A stretch of 64,000 nucleotides of DNA from Pisaster brevispinus (Eukaryota; Echinodermata; Asteroidea; Forcipulatida; Asteriidae), in the NCBI GenBank assembly GCA_023634235.1, contig JAMKCF010000008.1:16985558-17049557 (forward strand). The letters are read 5' to 3'. Positions within the stretch are counted from its first letter, which is position 1; every line of letters starts with the position of its first letter. Of this stretch, positions 2,735 through 61,973 are shown in pieces. The notes under the pieces are model-generated. The model worked only from the letters and a program-made list of their open reading frames with translations, did no database searches and had not been told where the DNA came from. The translations under genes and the position numbers were made by a program.

Positions 2735-2984
2735 TTTTTCACGCCTGACTGAAGCTAGCCGCATAATGGGCCCAATTTCACATCTACGTATTCAAGGGCC
2801 GTCCGCGTATTCAGGAAAATAAGAATCCATGCGGTAAAAGGTGGTGAAATTTCGGTCGCCCTTCCTTTTTGATTATTACGAATTGTTTTAATAATGCGTT
2901 TTCAATATAATTTGTTTAATAGTTTTCACTAACATATCAATAACCATACTCGTAGACAGAATTAGCTTATTTGGATGCATAAAT

Positions 2985-3411
2985 GGTGAGTAATTAGCCG
3001 CCACAATTAAAACCTCATCATCAAGACCATATTTTTTACGCAACTGCCAAACAAATTGCACTAACCCCAAAGTAAATTTACCCTTCATGTTGCAAAAAAG
3101 GGTTTTTTCCCATAATCCGATAGACCGTACCACTGGGCACGCTTAATCTTGGAGGTGGCTAATTCCGTTCACTAATTAATACCTAATTAGCCGCTACAAT
3201 ACAAGACATTTTCTGTGTTACATTAAGGTATATCACATTTACACATAGGCCTATACTTACTATTATGACTGCACTCACCGCAAAGTAAATGTACCCTTCA
3301 TGTTGCAAAAATCTTACAATTTTGTTCTTTAATCTTAGAGACTATACCACTGGGCACACTTAATTTTGGAGGTGGCTAATTCTGTTCACTAATTAATACC
3401 TAATTAGCCGC
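2985..3411. repeat. Subterminal satellite of the large element, left block before the LINE
   Basis: About two units of a roughly 180-230-bp repeat. Landmarks in each unit are TAATTAGCCGC, GTAAATGTACCCTTCATG, ACCACTGGGCAC, TTGGAGGTGGCTAATT and CACTAATTAATAC. The first unit is more diverged. The repeat stops at AGCCGC (3411), where the LINE insertion begins, and resumes at 4462. Confidence 0.8.
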
Positions 3412-4461
3412 GTGAAATCTGACTGTCATTGCCTGTGGTGCGGTACCGCACGGTTCTGCAGCCGGACCCCTTGTATGTATTGTTCAGTGCACCGCTGCAA
3501 GATCTCATAGCTGCTCATGGTATAAAAAGTATTGTTTATGCAGATGATACTCAGTTTTATCTGACCTATAAACCGGCGGATCTTGACTTAGCCTTGCCAG
3601 AAATTAAGGCTTGTATTGATGACATAAAATCTTGGTCATTATCAAACAAACTTGCTCTAAATGATTCTAAAACTGAGATCATTATTTACTCACGTTTCAC
3701 TAAAAACATGCCCCCTGCTGAAATTAACATTCGACAGTCAATTATTCAACCATCTCGTGTAGTCAGAAACCTCAGTGTTCTTATGGATTCTTCAATGAGT
3801 ATGACCGACCAAATAACCAATATCTGCAAATCTGCTCTTCTGCAAATCAGAAAAATAGGTCGAATTCGACGCCATCTTGATGATGATTCCACTCTTGTAC
3901 TTGTTCATGCCTTTGTAACTTCTAGACTCGACTCATGCAATTCTCTTCTTACCGGACTTTCTGATCAGAGAACTTTCCAAAATTCAACGTGTTCAGAACG
4001 CCGCTGCTCGCTTCGTATCACGTACACCTCGTTCTCAGCATATTACACCTGTCTTGCTAGAACTCCACTGGCTACCGTTCAAATTACGTATCGCGTATAA
4101 AATAAATCTCATCACTTTCAAAGCTCTTCATGGCCTATCTCCTGTCTATATATCTGACCTTCAAATATATTCCTGTTCGTCCTCTTCGCTCTGCTGGCCA
4201 ATCCCTACTGACTCAAACTACTTGTTTCCACTAAATTCTATGGTCAAAGAGCCTTCCACTTTATTGCACCTTCTTTATAGAACGACTTACCTCTTCATAT
4301 TCGCCAAGCTGACTCTCTTCAGATTTTCAAGGGACTTTGTTTGAATCTTTCTTTTGTAACAGTTGCTTTTATTATTTTTTGTTAAATTGTTTTATGTTTT
4401 GTTTTGCGCATAGAGGCTCCTGCATTATGCGCCATATAAATGTCTCGTATTATTATTATAT
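3412..4461 (+). pseudogene. 5'-truncated CR1/L2-type LINE, reverse transcriptase C-terminal part, broken
   Basis: Conserved RT pieces are spread over several frames. VPHGSAAGPL (cf. VPQGSVLGPL) starts at about 3443. A +1 change leads to VLFSAPLQDL and the catalytic YADDTQFYL box (about 3538). LNDSKTEIII and HAFVTSRLDSCNSLL follow. Another shift near 3968 leads to IQRVQNAAARFVSRTP, HITPVLLELHWLP and YKINLITFKALHGLSP. A last shift leads to RPLRSAGQSLL and a stop. The element ends with GCGCCATATAAATG and a (TATT)n-like tail. The endonuclease half is missing. Multiple frameshifts show a dead copy. It lies inside the satellite, which is cut cleanly between AGCCGC and TACAATAC. Confidence 0.85.
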
Positions 4462-4984
4462 TACAATACACGCCATTTTCTATCATATACATTAAGGTAT
4501 ATCACTTGTACACAAAATACTTATTATTAAGACTGCACTCGCCGTAAAGTAAATGTACCCTTCATGTTGTAAAAAAGATGAAATTTTATTCCATAATCTT
4601 AAAGACCATACCACTGGGCACACTTAATTTTGGAGGTGGCTAATTCGGATTACTAATTAACACCTGATTAGCCGCTACAATACACGCCATTTTTGACCAT
4701 ACGTTAATGTATGTCACAAATACTTACTATTATGACTGCACTCGCCGTAAAGTAATGTACCCTTCATGTTGTAAAAAAGATGAAGTTTTATTCCACCACT
4801 GGGCACACTTAATTTTGGAGGTGGCTTATTCGGATCACTAATTAACACCTAATTAGCCGCTACAATACACGCCATTTTCGATCATATGTTAAAGTATGGC
4901 ACTTGTCACAAACAATTACAATTTTGACTGCACTCTCGCCGTAAAGTAAATGTACCCTTCATGTTGCAAAAAAGATGACATTTT
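4462..4984. repeat. Subterminal satellite of the large element, right of the LINE
   Basis: Roughly three units carry the same landmarks as 2985-3411 (TACAATACACGCC, GACTGCACTC, GTACCCTTCATG, CCACTGGGCAC, GGAGGTGGCT, CTAATTAACAC). They are closer to each other than to the left-block units, pointing to local tandem expansion. Confidence 0.8.
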
Positions 4985-5398
4985 GTGCCACTTAATGAAT
5001 CATGTTTAACAGCTGAAATAGAAATATGTAAAAGTGTTCTATGTCTAACCTGTAATGAAACTTCCGTCGTTGAAAATTCGACATCAGGTGTGTTACCTGT
5101 TACCGCCCAAAAAAACTGTCTCTATGAGTGTTTGCAACATTGCTTCAGCGATGAAGTTGTAAGGGATGTCGATTGTAGTCTTTGTAGTCAAAATAAGAGC
5201 ACGAAAATAAGTGGTTCTCGTATCGTTAACTGTCCTTCACTATTAGTGGTGCAGTTATTAAGATTCAATGGAGTTCAGGGGATCGGAGAGGGAAAAAAAG
5301 CAAAACGTTTATCGACCCAAATATTGTAAATGATTTGTCAAAGTTTTGTGTCAAAAACACGCCAGCAGTTTACCGTCTGCATTCTGTAATTTATTGTT
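4985..5398 (+). pseudogene. Ubiquitin-specific protease (USP/UCH, C19) catalytic-domain fragment, frameshifted
   Basis: The first frame (4985-5329) shows a USP zinc-ribbon and C-box region: a CLTC pair, CLYECLQHCFSDEVV, then CSLCSQNKSTK, and NCPSLLVVQLLRF, which fits the family pattern PxxLxxxLKRF. After LRF the frame is lost in an A run at about 5291-5298. One frame over, KSKTFIDPNIV, LSKFCV and VYRLHSVIY continue, fitting the USP pattern YxLxAVIxH. A stop (TGA near 5396) falls where the catalytic His box would begin. The catalytic Cys box is not seen upstream. The region starts directly at the end of the satellite, so it is probably cargo of the large element. It is an inactive or mis-sequenced fragment; the domain match is good by eye but not searched. 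Confidence 0.6.
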
Positions 5399-5399
5399 G

Positions 5400-5760
5400 A
5401 CGAACGTAATTCATTTATAAGTCCTGAGTCATGAACCCATCTAACTCCACTATTTTGTTTGTTTGGGGGGGGGGGGTCTTGTATTTTTTATTTGTTAAGG
5501 TTAAAAGGTTTAAAATTGCGGCCTTGAAAACCCTTAAAACATAGGGCCGCTGTAATCACTTGCTAAAATGTTTTATTGTTTCATTGTCTCAACAACATCA
5601 TACACACTGGTCAGCTCATGCAATGATATTCTAGGCTGGACCATTCAGAAAAGGGGGGGGCATTGGTTTTAAGTGACGGCCAGGAGGAATAGGTTTGTCA
5701 GTGGTGGGGTCATGCTTTTGTTGCACCTGGCGACGCTGTAGGGGGGCCACAATCGTTCTT
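5400..5760. other. Non-repetitive spacer before the 27-bp array
   Basis: It contains a G homopolymer at about 5466-5477 and no recognisable gene. The open frames that run from here into the array on both strands are by-products of the array. Confidence 0.5.
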
Positions 5761-5857
5761 GCCAACTGCAACTGGGCCCCAGCTGCTGCCAACTGCAACT
5801 GGGCCCCAGCTGCTGCCAACTGCAACTGGGCCCCAGCTGCTGCCAACTGCAACTGGG
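5761..5857. repeat. Inverted-orientation block (about 3.6 units) of the 27-bp minisatellite
   Basis: Three full 27-bp units (5761-5787, 5788-5814, 5815-5841) and a partial one (5842-5857) read as the reverse complement of all later units. Orientation flips at about 5858 through GGGCTGCAACTGGGG. Confidence 0.9.
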
Positions 5858-8800
5858 CTGCAACTGGGGCCCAGTTGCAGTTGGCAGCAGCTGGGGCCCA
5901 GTTGCAGTTGGCAGCAGCTGGGGCCCAGTTGCAGTTGGCAGCAGCTGGGGCCCAGTTGCAGTTGGCAGCAGCTGGGGCCCAGTTGCAGTTGGCAGCAGCT
6001 GGGGCCCAGTTGCAGTTGGCAGCAGCTGGGGCCCAGTTGCAGTTGGCAGCAGCTGGGGCCCAGTTGCAGTTGGCAGCAGCTGGGGCCCAGTTGCAGTTGG
6101 CAGCAGCTGGGGCCCAGTTGCAGTTGGCAGCAGCTGGGGCCCAGTTGCAGTTGGCAGCAGCTGGGGCCCAGTTGCAGTTGGCAGCAGCTGGGGCCCAGTT
6201 GCAGTTGGCAGCAGCTGGGGCCCAGTTGCAGTTGGCAGCAGCTGGGGCCCAGTTGCAGTTGGCAGCAGCTGGGGCCCAGTTGCAGTTGGCAGCAGCTGGG
6301 GCCCAGTTGCAGTTGGCAGCAGCTGGGGCCCAGTTGCAGTTGGCAGCAGCTGGGGCCCAGTTGCAGTTGGCAGCAGCTGGGGCCCAGTTGCAGTTGGCAG
6401 CAGCTGGGGCCCAGTTGCAGTTGGCAGCAGCTGGGGCCCAGTTGCAGTTGGCAGCAGCTGGGGCCCAGTTGCAGTTGGCAGCAGCTGGGGCCCAGTTGCA
6501 GTTGGCAGCAGCTGGGGCCCAGTTGCAGTTGGCAGCAGCTGGGGCCCAGTTGCAGTTGGCAGCAGCTGGGGCCCAGTTGCAGTTGGCAGCAGCTGGGGCC
6601 CAGTTGCAGTTGGCAGCAGCTGGGGCCCAGTTGCAGTTGGCAGCAGCTGGGGCCCAGTTGCAGTTGGCAGCAGCTGGGGCCCAGTTGCAGTTGGCAGCAG
6701 CTGGGGCCCAGTTGCAGTTGGCAGCAGCTGGGGCCCAGTTGCAGTTGGCAGCAGCTGGGGCCCAGTTGCAGTTGGCAGCAGCTGGGGCCCAGTTGCAGTT
6801 GGCAGCAGCTGGGGCCCAGTTGCAGTTGGCAGCAGCTGGGGCCCAGTTGCAGTTGGCAGCAGCTGGGGCCCAGTTGCAGTTGGCAGCAGCTGGGGCCCAG
6901 TTGCAGTTGGCAGCAGCTGGGGCCCAGTTGCAGTTGGCAGCAGCTGGGGCCCAGTTGCAGTTGGCAGCAGCTGGGGCCCAGTTGCAGTTGGCAGCAGCTG
7001 GGGCCCAGTTGCAGTTGGCAGCAGCTGGGGCCCAGTTGCAGTTGGCAGCAGCTGGGGCCCAGTTGCAGTTGGCAGCAGCTGGGGCCCAGTTGCAGTTGGC
7101 AGCAGCTGGGGCCCAGTTGCAGTTGGCAGCAGCTGGGGCCCAGTTGCAGTTGGCAGCAGCTGGGGCCCAGTTGCAGTTGGCAGCAGCTGGGGCCCAGTTG
7201 CAGTTGGCAGCAGCTGGGGCCCAGTTGCAGTTGGCAGCAGCTGGGGCCCAGTTGCAGTTGGCAGCAGCTGGGGCCCAGTTGCAGTTGGCAGCAGCTGGGG
7301 CCCAGTTGCAGTTGGCAGCAGCTGGGGCCCAGTTGCAGTTGGCAGCAGCTGGGGCCCAGTTGCAGTTGGCAGCAGCTGGGGCCCAGTTGCAGTTGGCAGC
7401 AGCTGGGGCCCAGTTGCAGTTGGCAGCAGCTGGGGCCCAGTTGCAGTTGGCAGCAGCTGGGGCCCAGTTGCAGTTGGCAGCAGCTGGGGCCCAGTTGCAG
7501 TTGGCAGCAGCTGGGGCCCAGTTGCAGTTGGCAGCAGCTGGGGCCCAGTTGCAGTTGGCAGCAGCTGGGGCCCAGTTGCAGTTGGCAGCAGCTGGGGCCC
7601 AGTTGCAGTTGGCAGCAGCTGGGGCCCAGTTGCAGTTGGCAGCAGCTGGGGCCCAGTTGCAGTTGGCAGCAGCTGGGGCCCAGTTGCAGTTGGCAGCAGC
7701 TGGGGCCCAGTTGCAGTTGGCAGCAGCTGGGGCCCAGTTGCAGTTGGCAGCAGCTGGGGCCCAGTTGCAGTTGGCAGCAGCTGGGGCCCAGTTGCAGTTG
7801 GCAGCAGCTGGGGCCCAGTTGCAGTTGGCAGCAGCTGGGGCCCAGTTGCAGTTGGCAGCAGCTGGGGCCCAGTTGCAGTTGGCAGCAGCTGGGGCCCAGT
7901 TGCAGTTGGCAGCAGCTGGGGCCCAGTTGCAGTTGGCAGCAGCTGGGGCCCAGTTGCAGTTGGCAGCAGCTGGGGCCCAGTTGCAGTTGGCAGCAGCTGG
8001 GGCCCAGTTGCAGTTGGCAGCAGCTGGGGCCCAGTTGCAGTTGGCAGCAGCTGGGGCCCAGTTGCAGTTGGCAGCAGCTGGGGCCCAGTTGCAGTTGGCA
8101 GCAGCTGGGGCCCAGTTGCAGTTGGCAGCAGCTGGGGCCCAGTTGCAGTTGGCAGCAGCTGGGGCCCAGTTGCAGTTGGCAGCAGCTGGGGCCCAGTTGC
8201 AGTTGGCAGCAGCTGGGGCCCAGTTGCAGTTGGCAGCAGCTGGGGCCCAGTTGCAGTTGGCAGCAGCTGGGGCCCAGTTGCAGTTGGCAGCAGCTGGGGC
8301 CCAGTTGCAGTTGGCAGCAGCTGGGGCCCAGTTGCAGTTGGCAGCAGCTGGGGCCCAGTTGCAGTTGGCAGCAGCTGGGGCCCAGTTGCAGTTGGCAGCA
8401 GCTGGGGCCCAGTTGCAGTTGGCAGCAGCTGGGGCCCAGTTGCAGTTGGCAGCAGCTGGGGCCCAGTTGCAGTTGGCAGCAGCTGGGGCCCAGTTGCAGT
8501 TGGCAGCAGCTGGGGCCCAGTTGCAGTTGGCAGCAGCTGGGGCCCAGTTGCAGTTGGCAGCAGCTGGGGCCCAGTTGCAGTTGGCAGCAGCTGGGGCCCA
8601 GTTGCAGTTGGCAGCAGCTGGGGCCCAGTTGCAGTTGGCAGCAGCTGGGGCCCAGTTGCAGTTGGCAGCAGCTGGGGCCCAGTTGCAGTTGGCAGCAGCT
8701 GGGGCCCAGTTGCAGTTGGCAGCAGCTGGGGCCCAGTTGCAGTTGGCAGCAGCTGGGGCCCAGTTGCAGTTGGCAGCAGCTGGGGCCCAGTTGCAGTTGG

Positions 8801-11800
8801 CAGCAGCTGGGGCCCAGTTGCAGTTGGCAGCAGCTGGGGCCCAGTTGCAGTTGGCAGCAGCTGGGGCCCAGTTGCAGTTGGCAGCAGCTGGGGCCCAGTT
8901 GCAGTTGGCAGCAGCTGGGGCCCAGTTGCAGTTGGCAGCAGCTGGGGCCCAGTTGCAGTTGGCAGCAGCTGGGGCCCAGTTGCAGTTGGCAGCAGCTGGG
9001 GCCCAGTTGCAGTTGGCAGCAGCTGGGGCCCAGTTGCAGTTGGCAGCAGCTGGGGCCCAGTTGCAGTTGGCAGCAGCTGGGGCCCAGTTGCAGTTGGCAG
9101 CAGCTGGGGCCCAGTTGCAGTTGGCAGCAGCTGGGGCCCAGTTGCAGTTGGCAGCAGCTGGGGCCCAGTTGCAGTTGGCAGCAGCTGGGGCCCAGTTGCA
9201 GTTGGCAGCAGCTGGGGCCCAGTTGCAGTTGGCAGCAGCTGGGGCCCAGTTGCAGTTGGCAGCAGCTGGGGCCCAGTTGCAGTTGGCAGCAGCTGGGGCC
9301 CAGTTGCAGTTGGCAGCAGCTGGGGCCCAGTTGCAGTTGGCAGCAGCTGGGGCCCAGTTGCAGTTGGCAGCAGCTGGGGCCCAGTTGCAGTTGGCAGCAG
9401 CTGGGGCCCAGTTGCAGTTGGCAGCAGCTGGGGCCCAGTTGCAGTTGGCAGCAGCTGGGGCCCAGTTGCAGTTGGCAGCAGCTGGGGCCCAGTTGCAGTT
9501 GGCAGCAGCTGGGGCCCAGTTGCAGTTGGCAGCAGCTGGGGCCCAGTTGCAGTTGGCAGCAGCTGGGGCCCAGTTGCAGTTGGCAGCAGCTGGGGCCCAG
9601 TTGCAGTTGGCAGCAGCTGGGGCCCAGTTGCAGTTGGCAGCAGCTGGGGCCCAGTTGCAGTTGGCAGCAGCTGGGGCCCAGTTGCAGTTGGCAGCAGCTG
9701 GGGCCCAGTTGCAGTTGGCAGCAGCTGGGGCCCAGTTGCAGTTGGCAGCAGCTGGGGCCCAGTTGCAGTTGGCAGCAGCTGGGGCCCAGTTGCAGTTGGC
9801 AGCAGCTGGGGCCCAGTTGCAGTTGGCAGCAGCTGGGGCCCAGTTGCAGTTGGCAGCAGCTGGGGCCCAGTTGCAGTTGGCAGCAGCTGGGGCCCAGTTG
9901 CAGTTGGCAGCAGCTGGGGCCCAGTTGCAGTTGGCAGCAGCTGGGGCCCAGTTGCAGTTGGCAGCAGCTGGGGCCCAGTTGCAGTTGGCAGCAGCTGGGG
10001 CCCAGTTGCAGTTGGCAGCAGCTGGGGCCCAGTTGCAGTTGGCAGCAGCTGGGGCCCAGTTGCAGTTGGCAGCAGCTGGGGCCCAGTTGCAGTTGGCAGC
10101 AGCTGGGGCCCAGTTGCAGTTGGCAGCAGCTGGGGCCCAGTTGCAGTTGGCAGCAGCTGGGGCCCAGTTGCAGTTGGCAGCAGCTGGGGCCCAGTTGCAG
10201 TTGGCAGCAGCTGGGGCCCAGTTGCAGTTGGCAGCAGCTGGGGCCCAGTTGCAGTTGGCAGCAGCTGGGGCCCAGTTGCAGTTGGCAGCAGCTGGGGCCC
10301 AGTTGCAGTTGGCAGCAGCTGGGGCCCAGTTGCAGTTGGCAGCAGCTGGGGCCCAGTTGCAGTTGGCAGCAGCTGGGGCCCAGTTGCAGTTGGCAGCAGC
10401 TGGGGCCCAGTTGCAGTTGGCAGCAGCTGGGGCCCAGTTGCAGTTGGCAGCAGCTGGGGCCCAGTTGCAGTTGGCAGCAGCTGGGGCCCAGTTGCAGTTG
10501 GCAGCAGCTGGGGCCCAGTTGCAGTTGGCAGCAGCTGGGGCCCAGTTGCAGTTGGCAGCAGCTGGGGCCCAGTTGCAGTTGGCAGCAGCTGGGGCCCAGT
10601 TGCAGTTGGCAGCAGCTGGGGCCCAGTTGCAGTTGGCAGCAGCTGGGGCCCAGTTGCAGTTGGCAGCAGCTGGGGCCCAGTTGCAGTTGGCAGCAGCTGG
10701 GGCCCAGTTGCAGTTGGCAGCAGCTGGGGCCCAGTTGCAGTTGGCAGCAGCTGGGGCCCAGTTGCAGTTGGCAGCAGCTGGGGCCCAGTTGCAGTTGGCA
10801 GCAGCTGGGGCCCAGTTGCAGTTGGCAGCAGCTGGGGCCCAGTTGCAGTTGGCAGCAGCTGGGGCCCAGTTGCAGTTGGCAGCAGCTGGGGCCCAGTTGC
10901 AGTTGGCAGCAGCTGGGGCCCAGTTGCAGTTGGCAGCAGCTGGGGCCCAGTTGCAGTTGGCAGCAGCTGGGGCCCAGTTGCAGTTGGCAGCAGCTGGGGC
11001 CCAGTTGCAGTTGGCAGCAGCTGGGGCCCAGTTGCAGTTGGCAGCAGCTGGGGCCCAGTTGCAGTTGGCAGCAGCTGGGGCCCAGTTGCAGTTGGCAGCA
11101 GCTGGGGCCCAGTTGCAGTTGGCAGCAGCTGGGGCCCAGTTGCAGTTGGCAGCAGCTGGGGCCCAGTTGCAGTTGGCAGCAGCTGGGGCCCAGTTGCAGT
11201 TGGCAGCAGCTGGGGCCCAGTTGCAGTTGGCAGCAGCTGGGGCCCAGTTGCAGTTGGCAGCAGCTGGGGCCCAGTTGCAGTTGGCAGCAGCTGGGGCCCA
11301 GTTGCAGTTGGCAGCAGCTGGGGCCCAGTTGCAGTTGGCAGCAGCTGGGGCCCAGTTGCAGTTGGCAGCAGCTGGGGCCCAGTTGCAGTTGGCAGCAGCT
11401 GGGGCCCAGTTGCAGTTGGCAGCAGCTGGGGCCCAGTTGCAGTTGGCAGCAGCTGGGGCCCAGTTGCAGTTGGCAGCAGCTGGGGCCCAGTTGCAGTTGG
11501 CAGCAGCTGGGGCCCAGTTGCAGTTGGCAGCAGCTGGGGCCCAGTTGCAGTTGGCAGCAGCTGGGGCCCAGTTGCAGTTGGCAGCAGCTGGGGCCCAGTT
11601 GCAGTTGGCAGCAGCTGGGGCCCAGTTGCAGTTGGCAGCAGCTGGGGCCCAGTTGCAGTTGGCAGCAGCTGGGGCCCAGTTGCAGTTGGCAGCAGCTGGG
11701 GCCCAGTTGCAGTTGGCAGCAGCTGGGGCCCAGTTGCAGTTGGCAGCAGCTGGGGCCCAGTTGCAGTTGGCAGCAGCTGGGGCCCAGTTGCAGTTGGCAG

Positions 11801-13963
11801 CAGCTGGGGCCCAGTTGCAGTTGGCAGCAGCTGGGGCCCAGTTGCAGTTGGCAGCAGCTGGGGCCCAGTTGCAGTTGGCAGCAGCTGGGGCCCAGTTGCA
11901 GTTGGCAGCAGCTGGGGCCCAGTTGCAGTTGGCAGCAGCTGGGGCCCAGTTGCAGTTGGCAGCAGCTGGGGCCCAGTTGCAGTTGGCAGCAGCTGGGGCC
12001 CAGTTGCAGTTGGCAGCAGCTGGGGCCCAGTTGCAGTTGGCAGCAGCTGGGGCCCAGTTGCAGTTGGCAGCAGCTGGGGCCCAGTTGCAGTTGGCAGCAG
12101 CTGGGGCCCAGTTGCAGTTGGCAGCAGCTGGGGCCCAGTTGCAGTTGGCAGCAGCTGGGGCCCAGTTGCAGTTGGCAGCAGCTGGGGCCCAGTTGCAGTT
12201 GGCAGCAGCTGGGGCCCAGTTGCAGTTGGCAGCAGCTGGGGCCCAGTTGCAGTTGGCAGCAGCTGGGGCCCAGTTGCAGTTGGCAGCAGCTGGGGCCCAG
12301 TTGCAGTTGGCAGCAGCTGGGGCCCAGTTGCAGTTGGCAGCAGCTGGGGCCCAGTTGCAGTTGGCAGCAGCTGGGGCCCAGTTGCAGTTGGCAGCAGCTG
12401 GGGCCCAGTTGCAGTTGGCAGCAGCTGGGGCCCAGTTGCAGTTGGCAGCAGCTGGGGCCCAGTTGCAGTTGGCAGCAGCTGGGGCCCAGTTGCAGTTGGC
12501 AGCAGCTGGGGCCCAGTTGCAGTTGGCAGCAGCTGGGGCCCAGTTGCAGTTGGCAGCAGCTGGGGCCCAGTTGCAGTTGGCAGCAGCTGGGGCCCAGTTG
12601 CAGTTGGCAGCAGCTGGGGCCCAGTTGCAGTTGGCAGCAGCTGGGGCCCAGTTGCAGTTGGCAGCAGCTGGGGCCCAGTTGCAGTTGGCAGCAGCTGGGG
12701 CCCAGTTGCAGTTGGCAGCAGCTGGGGCCCAGTTGCAGTTGGCAGCAGCTGGGGCCCAGTTGCAGTTGGCAGCAGCTGGGGCCCAGTTGCAGTTGGCAGC
12801 AGCTGGGGCCCAGTTGCAGTTGGCAGCAGCTGGGGCCCAGTTGCAGTTGGCAGCAGCTGGGGCCCAGTTGCAGTTGGCAGCAGCTGGGGCCCAGTTGCAG
12901 TTGGCAGCAGCTGGGGCCCAGTTGCAGTTGGCAGCAGCTGGGGCCCAGTTGCAGTTGGCAGCAGCTGGGGCCCAGTTGCAGTTGGCAGCAGCTGGGGCCC
13001 AGTTGCAGTTGGCAGCAGCTGGGGCCCAGTTGCAGTTGGCAGCAGCTGGGGCCCAGTTGCAGTTGGCAGCAGCTGGGGCCCAGTTGCAGTTGGCAGCAGC
13101 TGGGGCCCAGTTGCAGTTGGCAGCAGCTGGGGCCCAGTTGCAGTTGGCAGCAGCTGGGGCCCAGTTGCAGTTGGCAGCAGCTGGGGCCCAGTTGCAGTTG
13201 GCAGCAGCTGGGGCCCAGTTGCAGTTGGCAGCAGCTGGGGCCCAGTTGCAGTTGGCAGCAGCTGGGGCCCAGTTGCAGTTGGCAGCAGCTGGGGCCCAGT
13301 TGCAGTTGGCAGCAGCTGGGGCCCAGTTGCAGTTGGCAGCAGCTGGGGCCCAGTTGCAGTTGGCAGCAGCTGGGGCCCAGTTGCAGTTGGCAGCAGCTGG
13401 GGCCCAGTTGCAGTTGGCAGCAGCTGGGGCCCAGTTGCAGTTGGCAGCAGCTGGGGCCCAGTTGCAGTTGGCAGCAGCTGGGGCCCAGTTGCAGTTGGCA
13501 GCAGCTGGGGCCCAGTTGCAGTTGGCAGCAGCTGGGGCCCAGTTGCAGTTGGCAGCAGCTGGGGCCCAGTTGCAGTTGGCAGCAGCTGGGGCCCAGTTGC
13601 AGTTGGCAGCAGCTGGGGCCCAGTTGCAGTTGGCAGCAGCTGGGGCCCAGTTGCAGTTGGCAGCAGCTGGGGCCCAGTTGCAGTTGGCAGCAGCTGGGGC
13701 CCAGTTGCAGTTGGCAGCAGCTGGGGCCCAGTTGCAGTTGGCAGCAGCTGGGGCCCAGTTGCAGTTGGCAGCAGCTGGGGCCCAGTTGCAGTTGGCAGCA
13801 GCTGGGGCCCAGTTGCAGTTGGCAGCAGCTGGGGCCCAGTTGCAGTTGGCAGCAGCTGGGGCCCAGTTGCAGTTGGCAGCAGCTGGGGCCCAGTTGCAGT
13901 TGGCAGCAGCTGGGGCCCAGTTGCAGTTGGCAGCAGCTGGGGCCCAGTTGCAGTTGGCAGCAG
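5858..13963. repeat. 27-bp minisatellite, about 300 tandem copies
   Basis: The unit contains TTGCAGTTGG, CAGCAGCTGG and GGCCCAG in order, with CAGCTG and GGGCCC palindromes. The phase repeats exactly every 540 bp (20 units) from start to end, and no variant unit was seen by eye. 8.1 kb divided by 27 gives about 300 copies. Because 27 is a multiple of three and the unit lacks stops in several frames, reading frames of more than 2,700 codons exist on both strands (nonapeptides AAANCNWAP, AQLQLAAAG, GPSCSWQQL). There is no evidence of a gene: no conserved flanking domain, and competing frames are equally open. The array ends in CAGCCCCGCCG near 13970. Confidence 0.97.
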
Positions 13964-14480
13964 CCCCGCCGTGATTCGATCCTCTCACCTTCTCTCTTGT
14001 AGTCGCTCGGCCTACCTCTGGGCTAAGTTACTGCCCACCACCACCCTCTGTTTGTTCCAATATATAGTGTTAATCTAAATTTTTATGAAGGTAAAAAGAA
14101 ATTAGTTCTTTGGTTTGAGCCTACCTGGGCTCGAACCCGGCTTTTGCGATGTGCAAGACCATCACTTAACTAGTTTTGCTAACTTACTGATCTACTGGAA
14201 GTTTGCTTTTTTTTAGATATAAATATTTCTTTACCTTTTTAATTAAGATAAAAAAACATAAACCAGCCTGGGCTCGAACCTGGTTCTTGCGATTTGCACT
14301 ACCTTAAACTATCCACTTGCGCTAACTTGCCAGCTCATAAATTGTGCTTTATATTTACGTTATAAATAATTTGTTACACAACAGTTGAAAAAAAAAGTTA
14401 AATGCTGTGCTTCGAACCGGGGTCTTGTACTATGCACTACCACGACCAACTCTTCGTATTTAGTTGCGCTGACTGTTCTC
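13964..14480 (-). repeat. Tandem tRNA-like units (about four, roughly 140-147-bp spacing)
   Basis: On the minus strand each unit has a B-box-like motif (GATCGAATCAC at about 13970-13983; GGTTCGAGCCC forms at about 14126 and 14270; CCGGTTCGAAGC at about 14415) and an A-box-like motif (for example TTAGCGCAAGTGG near 14320). Linkers are AT-rich. They resemble decayed tRNA-derived SINE heads or tRNA pseudogenes. No unit forms a clean cloverleaf by eye. Confidence 0.55.
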
Positions 14481-15215
14481 ACGGTATTTGCAACTGGGCC
14501 CGGCTGCGATATGTTTTCCCGCTCAGTTGAGGCAGAACCAAAAGAGGGCGTTGTTTGCCTTCCATAGGTCATGAATATTAAAAGCTGCATAATACATGTT
14601 AACAGATAATTTTCTAACATGTTACTATTCATAATGAAGGGTACAAATTCTTTACACAAGACGTAGTTGACTCTACCGCATATGCAATTGCGTGTATTTT
14701 AGATGGAAAATGGTGTTTGTATAACTACTAATTAGTTGACCAAATTAGCCAGCTCAAAAATGTGGTATGCCCAGTGCCCAGTCTTCAAGATTCTGGGCTA
14801 AAACTTCCTTTTTTATTCATAACGAAGGGTACAAACTCTTTTCAAATTATGTTATAGTATTTAAACTGCATAACAAAAAAAATGACATAACACACGCACA
14901 TTGTCTCCGTGTTTGCGGCTAATTTTCTGTTATTTAGCGACTTGTTTTTGTTTGTTTATTGCTTTTCAATGATGAATAGCTATAACATTTCAATATTATC
15001 AAGAGAAAATCTGCAAGTTATGGCTAGAATTTCAGTATTTGTTCGGATAACGTAACGGATTCGCCGACAGAAATGAGCCAAATGAGCCATTTTGTCACCT
15101 CCCTATACTGCATGTGTTCTAATTTCGTGAATACGCGGCTGGCCGTTCCGCGAATATGCGGCTGGCTAATTTGGGCCCAATACTGTGCTAGCTTCAGCTC
15201 GGTCTTTTTCACTGG
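14480..15215. repeat. Right end of the large element with subterminal repeats
   Basis: Read on the minus strand, this stretch carries ATTAGCCGC, TACCCTTCGTT, ACTGGGCACTGGGC, GAGCTGGCTAATT and ACTAATTAG, a second TACCCTTCATT, and then the outer terminal repeat. It mirrors 2740-5000. No gene is seen. Confidence 0.6.

Positions 15216-22666: not shown

Positions 22667-61973
<39,307 letters not shown>

Follow-up and report, generated by a model that had tools for sequence, protein, structure and literature searches.

Between the BBS4 and ORC6 genes of the sea star Pisaster brevispinus lies a 12.5-kb region with mirrored ends, and it raises the question of whether one large transposon occupies this intergenic space or whether the region is composite. 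We analysed the region within a 64-kb stretch of DNA (hereafter the window; contig JAMKCF010000008.1, our C8, of a 550-Mb genome). The sequence-only reading had described one foldback-like element, without a recognisable transposase, as the reason why a satellite, a captured protease fragment, a minisatellite and tRNA-like units sit together. From comparison with dispersed copies in the same genome, we propose that positions 2743-15203 are probably what is left of two related cut-and-paste DNA transposons that became fused, in which an element of family A inserted first, an element of family B inserted at A's right end, and deletions followed (Table 1).

The symmetry that had been described is present in the window. 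The outer ends (2749-2847 and the reverse complement of 15095-15197) agree at 75 of 104 columns (72%; ~75% had been estimated for ~100-bp edges), and their score was reached by 0 of 2000 shuffles and by 2 of 4000 random pairs of window pieces. An inner unit is mirrored as well (4554-4659 and the reverse complement of 14729-14833; 79 of 106 columns, 75%, E 1e-13), confirming that inner motifs recur in opposite orientation. The motif TACCCTTCATG has five exact forward copies on the left side and two reversed copies, with 1-2 mismatches, on the right; CACTGGGCAC has four and two, respectively, and GGTGGCTAATT and CACTAATTA are likewise forward on the left, with one reversed copy each on the right. 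Weaker matches to these motifs occur on both strands, and under the same limits the 51.5 kb beyond the element holds 9, 30, 16 and 5 matches to the four motifs. Comparison with family copies places the outermost bases at 2743 and 15203, within a few bases of the limits first proposed (2735-15215). The ends are flanked by an 8-bp direct repeat, TTTTTCAC (2735-2742 and 15205-15212), of which the right copy lies one base away from the end. Such a flank match arose by chance in 14 of 51139 trials with the right flank fixed, 16 of 51139 with the left flank fixed, and 90 of 400000 with both random.

To find relatives of the left end, we searched the genome with its first 151 bp and scored 40 of 328 candidates, obtaining 42 matches including the window itself. 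The best of the 41 scored others is 85% identical, and 29 of the 41 align from window position 2744 onward. Six facing-end pairs were fetched, five of which were resolved; the pair on C6 was left out, and two ends 173 kb apart on C41 were not counted as a pair. The five resolved family A copies have identical ACCGGACTGAAGC termini, are 5.6-11.3 kb in total length, and are each flanked by an exact 8-bp duplication (CGATCTTT, AAGGATTT, TCTGTTCG, GGTACCCT and GACTGAAG; 8/8 in 5/5 pairs). From their ends run inverted stretches of 1.1-2.4 kb that are 89-98% identical within a copy and consist mostly of ~210-bp tandem repeats in arrays of 3.6-17.4 copies; these are long inverted arms made of tandem repeats, as in Foldback elements. 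Compared with these copies, window positions 2744-3411 show 82-83% identity at the left ends and 79-83% at the right. Within the ~100-bp head of E48, three CCGCGTATT motifs spaced 23-25 bp apart are candidate binding sites. A genome search of the kind suggested earlier thus turned up loci where family A ends face each other at 2.3-11.3 kb, many of them with 8-bp duplications, and the inference of a foldback-like transposon was borne out, given the ~100-bp ends, repeat-array arms and target duplications of dispersed copies.

We also examined target-site duplications more widely. Among 15 pairs tested, the duplication is 8/8 in L032, L033 and L038 and 7/8 in L039, and in L021, L028 and L037 inspection by eye shows a repeat of 7 or 8 bp that is out of register. 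No duplication was found in eight of the 15 (L018, L023, L025, L026, L027, L030, L031 and L034), which may pair ends of different copies. Seven of the 20 loci lack a partner end and stood outside this test (L019, L020, L022, L024, L029, L035 and L036). Further family B pairs have an exact 8-bp duplication in four of six cases (C9, C3, C4 and C18), a 9-bp repeat by eye in C43, and none in C13. Terminal inverted repeats stand at both ends of dispersed copies, as in cut-and-paste elements, and the copies demonstrate cut-and-paste movement with an 8-bp duplication.

The right end of the window tells a different story from the left. Using 151 bp of it as query, we scored 40 of 391 candidates and obtained 41 matches including the window; over the last ~133-143 bp, 39 of the 40 other listed matches are 94-100% identical, and the remaining one is a family A end at 80%. 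Two family B copies were read whole: L038 (2.73 kb, duplication TTTTACTG, 8/8) and L039 (4.75 kb, flanks CAGATTGC and CAGATAGC, 7/8). Both are laid out as left end, ~201-bp array, 27-bp minisatellite, tRNA-like block and right end. Window positions 13965-15203 are 97.3% identical to L039 and 96.4% to L038, and the family B left end that both copies possess is absent from the window. A single 12.5-kb element is therefore probably not what occupies this locus, as its left end belongs to family A, its right end to family B, and B's own left end is missing. The two halves also appear to differ in age: the lack of any scored relative above 85%, a LINE (long interspersed nuclear element) insertion and a frameshifted gene piece indicate that the left end is old, and relatives at 94-100% indicate that the right end is younger. 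Because family A and B ends are ~78% alike, we infer that B could be mobilised by an A-type transposase.

Insertion of these elements in or beside one another's ends was observed directly, with two clear cases among the listed matches. E9b is inserted inside the end of another copy, and its flanks, joined minus one GACTGAAG, restore that end and so provide a natural empty site. On C18, a family A copy (L037) is flanked on both sides by AACACTTT; one base further comes a family B end that pairs with one 24.9 kb away, the two being bordered by ACACTTTT (L037 with L050). This arrangement parallels the end-adjacent B insertion that we propose for the window. A possible third case is on C5 (start of L025), where two heads lie 66 bp apart; L025 has no target duplication, and this case may be a tandem duplication instead of nesting. 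Ends found inside or within ~10 bp of other ends of these families hint at insertion into the elements' own termini; by our estimate, chance would bring an insertion within 20 bp of one of ~81 listed ends at a rate of only ~3e-6.

We propose the following history for the locus. A family A element would have inserted upstream of BBS4 and duplicated TTTTTCAC, as family comparison and the direct repeat suggest. A non-autonomous family B element would then have inserted at A's right end, its target overlapping A's duplication by all but one base, and one or more deletions would have removed A's transposase core and right arm together with B's left arm. One deletion may have joined the array to the protease piece at 4990, and another may lie at or after 5454. 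The outcome would be A's left arm and protease end standing beside the minisatellite, tRNA-like block and right end of B. The termini fixed by the two families place the repeat one base off, and we do not favour TTTTTCAC as a plain duplication made by a single 12.5-kb element. Instead, we read CTTTTTCAC as the last base of A followed by the right copy of A's duplication, with which B's own duplication, CTTTTTCA, overlaps. If A's right end was C (the left end here starts with G, that of the family with A), CTTTTTCA would combine that final base of A with seven bases from A's duplication, without any additional mutation. Two parts of the region, 5455-5759 and the inverted 99-bp minisatellite piece, are left unexplained by this history.

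Several other explanations of the same structure were weighed. An A left end and a B right end could have been joined elsewhere and moved here as one hybrid element, with one transposase accepting both ends; ends that are 72-79% alike and TTTTTCAC flanks with a chance probability of ~3e-4 would suit such an event. We nevertheless consider it unlikely, because none of the 41 other scored copies of the left end exceeds 85%, against copies at 94-100% for the right end, because 19 of 20 loci have no match to the minisatellite (L018 has two weak ones), and because the TTTTTCAC repeat is one base off. Still less probable is that A inserted alone and its right half was later replaced with B sequence, through gene conversion or gap repair templated on a B copy at another locus. 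The homology between the ends and the surviving duplication would agree with this, but conversion would have to reach the last base between ends ~78% alike and would leave the extra C at 15204 to be accounted for, whereas insertion adjoining an end is directly seen elsewhere.

The perfection of the minisatellite (299 of 300 units identical) and its inverted 99-bp start could also point to an assembly artefact in which unrelated A and B copies were misjoined through the perfect 8.1-kb array. Perfect arrays are found in L021, L024, L028, L037, L038 and L039 as well, however, and the flanks on either side both belong to the BBS4-ORC6 interval and have TTTTTCAC in common, so that we give this explanation very little credence. 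Finally, an origin of both ends by independent local duplications, without any transposon, is refuted by copies scattered through the genome that share these ends and have target duplications, and we assign it next to no probability. Successive insertion of two elements with later deletions remains the history we favour.

The protease-like fragment links the window to the gene carried by fuller family A copies. The frame at 4979-5326 is a ubiquitin-specific protease (USP) remnant that matches host-type models weakly (UCH, E 0.039; USP30, E 0.013). Its one relative among the predicted proteins searched is P0001 (991 aa; E 3e-25), to which it is 50% identical over 112 columns and which has a USP domain (PF00443, E 1.1e-7). 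The corresponding DNA is 88.5%, 86.8%, 83.9% and 80.9% identical to L019, L025, L022 and L030, which are family A loci; each of these matches ends at window position 5454. We rejected a captured host protease, since the piece has 50% identity to a transposase-USP fusion and 81-89% DNA identity to family A loci, whereas the best host USP of solved structure matches it at E 0.013; the piece claimed earlier as captured belongs to the family A transposase gene. The failure to recognise a transposase holds for the window, which retains only the C-terminal protease end of the gene and has lost the transposase core; in the relatives a transposase is recognisable, and in two of them its frame is open.

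The first ~70% of P0001 matches four uncharacterised fish proteins (from Garra rufa, Perca fluviatilis, Triplophysa rosa and Mugilogobius chulae), and no Pfam transposase model matched P0001 and its relatives, even at E 10. Five sequences agree without exception at residues D273, D352, C398, H401 and E623 (P0001 numbering), of which D273, D352 and H401 stay invariant across nine, some of which are cut short. We read these residues as the pattern of a DDE transposase, with E623 as a putative catalytic residue; a CxxH motif occurs in Mutator-like elements (MULEs). The modelled transposase fold, with a WRKY-like N-terminal domain, is nearest to ISCth4 among Foldseek's top chains, from which neighbours were taken and beyond which other families are possible; we take ISCth4 to belong to the IS256 family, the bacterial relatives of Mutator. 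For the USP part the model is poor (predicted local distance difference test score, pLDDT, <50), and the protease identity of P0001 therefore rests on its match to PF00443; C776 is its presumed catalytic cysteine. At the C-terminus of other relatives, P0002 has a Ulp1-type protease above the Pfam cut-off, P0004 and P0005 have one below it, and Pfam found none in P0003; the distant relative P0009 also has Ulp1. In viral_contigs, seven stretches matched a P0001 pattern and none was a relative.

Copies of this gene range from open to decayed. E9b (L014:4361 to L015:1231) and E25 (L012/L013) each have a frame that stays open for 974 codons between stops and is 58.6% identical to P0001 residues 10-834, and they differ by one amino acid and no synonymous change. 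L035, compared over 866 codons, likewise has a single amino-acid difference from E9b and no synonymous change, but carries one frameshift. Two open genes and a frameshifted third that are nearly identical suggest very recent movement. In L019 the gene is spread over three frames and corresponds to P0001 residues 46-988, USP part included (the stretch starts at that point), and parts of the transposase-USP gene are found in L025, L022, L030 and L018. E9b lacks ~950 bp found in L019 and with it the C-terminal half of the USP, which E25 lacks as well; Pfam has no match to the shorter USP piece of E9b. The youngest copies thus seem to spread without a complete protease and may be helped by other copies. 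Ratios of nonsynonymous to synonymous substitution rates (dN/dS) against four loci are 0.48-0.83 for the transposase and 0.26-0.63 for the window USP piece; measured partly on decayed copies, they carry little information on constraint.

From these relatives, a fuller family A element would consist of the ~100-bp head and ~210-bp repeat arms flanking a gene whose product is a DDE transposase that has a WRKY-like DNA-binding domain and a C-terminal USP. This enzyme presumably recognises the motifs of the head, cuts the element out and integrates it elsewhere, producing an 8-bp duplication at the new site, and an A-type transposase presumably moves family B copies in trans. As a guess, the USP may shield the transposase or its complex from ubiquitin-dependent removal.

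Minisatellites occur in copies of both families. The 27-bp unit is present 10.4 times in L038 and 63.7 times in L039 (both 100% pure) and 300 times in the window, and the window's tRNA-like block is 94-95% identical in L038 and L039; in family A, five loci match it at 72-77% and a sixth has short pieces of it. From this layout, the 27-bp minisatellite and the tRNA-like units are parts of family B. GC-rich 22-bp units occur in six family A loci (L023, L024, L026, L028, L031 and L033) and 16-bp units in three (L018, L021 and L037); all contain GGGCCC, GGGCC or GGCCC, and all these loci lack an intact transposase. The 22-bp array lies within ~130 bp of the tRNA-like block in L026, L028, L031 and L033, and in L024, which lacks a partner end, the array may be external to the element. 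No minisatellite is present in the five long-armed family A pairs. A single GCAACTGGGCCCGGCTGC, adjoining the tRNA-like block, is retained in the window. Neither ARAGORN nor Rfam found a tRNA in the block, and we rejected tRNA genes there. A cmscan search of the relatives gave 97 sub-threshold matches, mostly to microRNA families and none at gathering score; the ones checked coincide with GC-rich minisatellites, and we regard them as chance matches. Foldback-like transposons thus do account for the shared intergenic space of satellite, protease piece, minisatellite and tRNA-like units. At the strand switch of the window minisatellite, 5760-5967 forms a perfect 99-bp inverted repeat, which is either a rearrangement scar or an assembly effect.

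With its RNase H-fold DDE transposase of apparent IS256/Mutator type, family A is Mutator-like in modelled fold and in duplication length. It shares with MULEs and ISCth4 the DDE pattern with CxxH, the ISCth4-like fold, the WRKY-like N-terminal domain, long ends and the 8-bp duplication, and differs from them in matching no Pfam transposase model and in its fused protease and tandem-repeat arms. An 8-bp duplication is also known from the literature on Zisupton/KDZ; no KDZ model was among the matches to Pfam profiles up to E 10. Rehavkus, described in Repbase, is Mutator-related, with terminal repeats of 26-400 bp, a minisatellite before the 3' end, a 9-bp duplication and a PHD finger, and Mutator-like duplications range over 8-11 bp (PMC6446971), which includes the 8 bp seen here. 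Long terminal repeats, a minisatellite before the 3' end (the 27-bp unit in both whole-read B copies) and the Mutator grouping are common to both. Here, however, the exact duplications are 8 bp (with the one 9-bp case on C43) and a USP stands in place of the PHD finger, which Pfam detects in neither P0001 nor E9b and only in the fish relative P0004. As the 9-bp duplication and PHD finger do not apply, we do not assign these elements to Rehavkus, on comparison with its published description.

Other systems share single features. Tm1 of root-knot nematodes, a Mutator/Foldback family, likewise combines Foldback-type composite ends with a Mutator-type transposase and mixes coding copies with ones like miniature inverted-repeat transposable elements, but it has a 9-bp duplication and a Phantom-type transposase, and its abstract mentions no protease (PMC3169594). 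Tetris of Drosophila virilis has ~220-bp tandem repeats inside its ends and element repeats that feed satellites; it is apparently non-autonomous and its satellite derives from the arm repeats, whereas here a separate GC-rich unit of 16, 22 or 27 bp expands (PMC4079207). Galileo has long, internally repetitive ends resembling Foldback, but belongs to the P-element superfamily with a THAP domain, in place of the WRKY-like domain and ISCth4-like core seen here. The plant KI-MULE and Kaonashi elements are Mutator-type with a ubiquitin/SUMO-related cysteine protease; theirs is Ulp1 instead of USP and is found in just one of the three coding genes, and they are MULEs without terminal inverted repeats (PMC13317346, PMC8277862). 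Helitron-encoded deubiquitinases (VTD) also place a deubiquitinase in a transposon protein, in a rolling-circle element with another protease class and no DDE transposase (PMC9741609). Our literature search of openly licensed papers found no DDE transposase-USP fusion, and on that basis the fusion appears to be new; foldback arms with a Mutator-type transposase, satellite-seeding repeats and Ulp1 in MULEs were already known. Tentatively, and with the balance of probability somewhat against it, these elements may be an animal lineage, undescribed so far, that stands next to Mutator and Rehavkus, with an exchangeable C-terminal USP or Ulp1 protease, short copies that repeatedly breed GGGCCC-centred minisatellites by the tRNA-like block, and insertion into or right beside their own ends.

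Table 1. Features of the proposed composite element in the window.
Feature	Position	Strand	Evidence
TTTTTCAC, candidate target-site duplication, left copy, 8 bp	2735..2742	+	direct repeat
Family A left end: ~100-bp terminal inverted repeat and first subterminal units	2743..3412	+	DNA identity to five paired copies
Remains of family A ~210-bp subterminal array, 5 units (last partial), LINE piece within	3057..4990	+	repeat comparison
LINE fragment, 5'-truncated, reverse transcriptase, inserted in array	3413..4461	+	RVT_1 E 1.3e-4, below Pfam cut-off
Family A transposase-USP gene, C-terminal end, frameshifted	4991..5454	+	protein match 4991-5373; DNA match to L019, L025, L022, L030
305-bp stretch starting where match to L019, L025, L022, L030 ends	5455..5759	.	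one 78-bp match, 74%, to L029
Minisatellite, 3.7 inverted units, left edge of array	5760..5858	-	unit comparison
27-bp minisatellite, 300 units, 299/300 identical; unit common to family B L038 and L039	5856..13964	+	
tRNA-like units: three with B box, fourth weaker; period ~143 bp	13965..14480	-	
Single GC-rich stretch resembling minisatellite units, TGCAACTGGGCCCGGCTGC	14486..14506	+	
Family B right subterminal region and right end	14500..15203	-	identity to L039, L038
CTTTTTCAC, containing direct repeat TTTTTCAC one base beyond end	15204..15212	+	

The boundaries of the LINE fragment were set by eye, and the ~210-bp unit sequence resumes beyond it. The location between BBS4 and ORC6 is supported on both sides, by a match to solved BBS4 on the left (E 1.9e-8) and to the ORC6 model on the right (E 5.8e-6). 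To the right of ORC6 are exons of a P-type cation-transport ATPase gene (24282-43140, +). Tandem arrays at 45526-45983 (164-bp units) and 61065-61287 (118-bp units) have a similar consensus by eye and perhaps form one family. Dispersed tRNA-derived sequences resembling short interspersed nuclear elements, with B boxes, occur for example at 39226 (+), 50323 (-), 52334 (-) and 60494 (-), and the window as a whole has 26 B-box matches (<=1 mismatch, both strands; some sites counted twice).

Fusion of a DDE transposase to a deubiquitinase suggests that some transposons bring their own defence against ubiquitin-dependent control. Families A and B also illustrate one origin of minisatellites, inside transposons, with 10, 64 and 300 copies of a unit at three loci. 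Finally, nesting at ends can build compound structures that mimic single large elements, as we propose for this locus.

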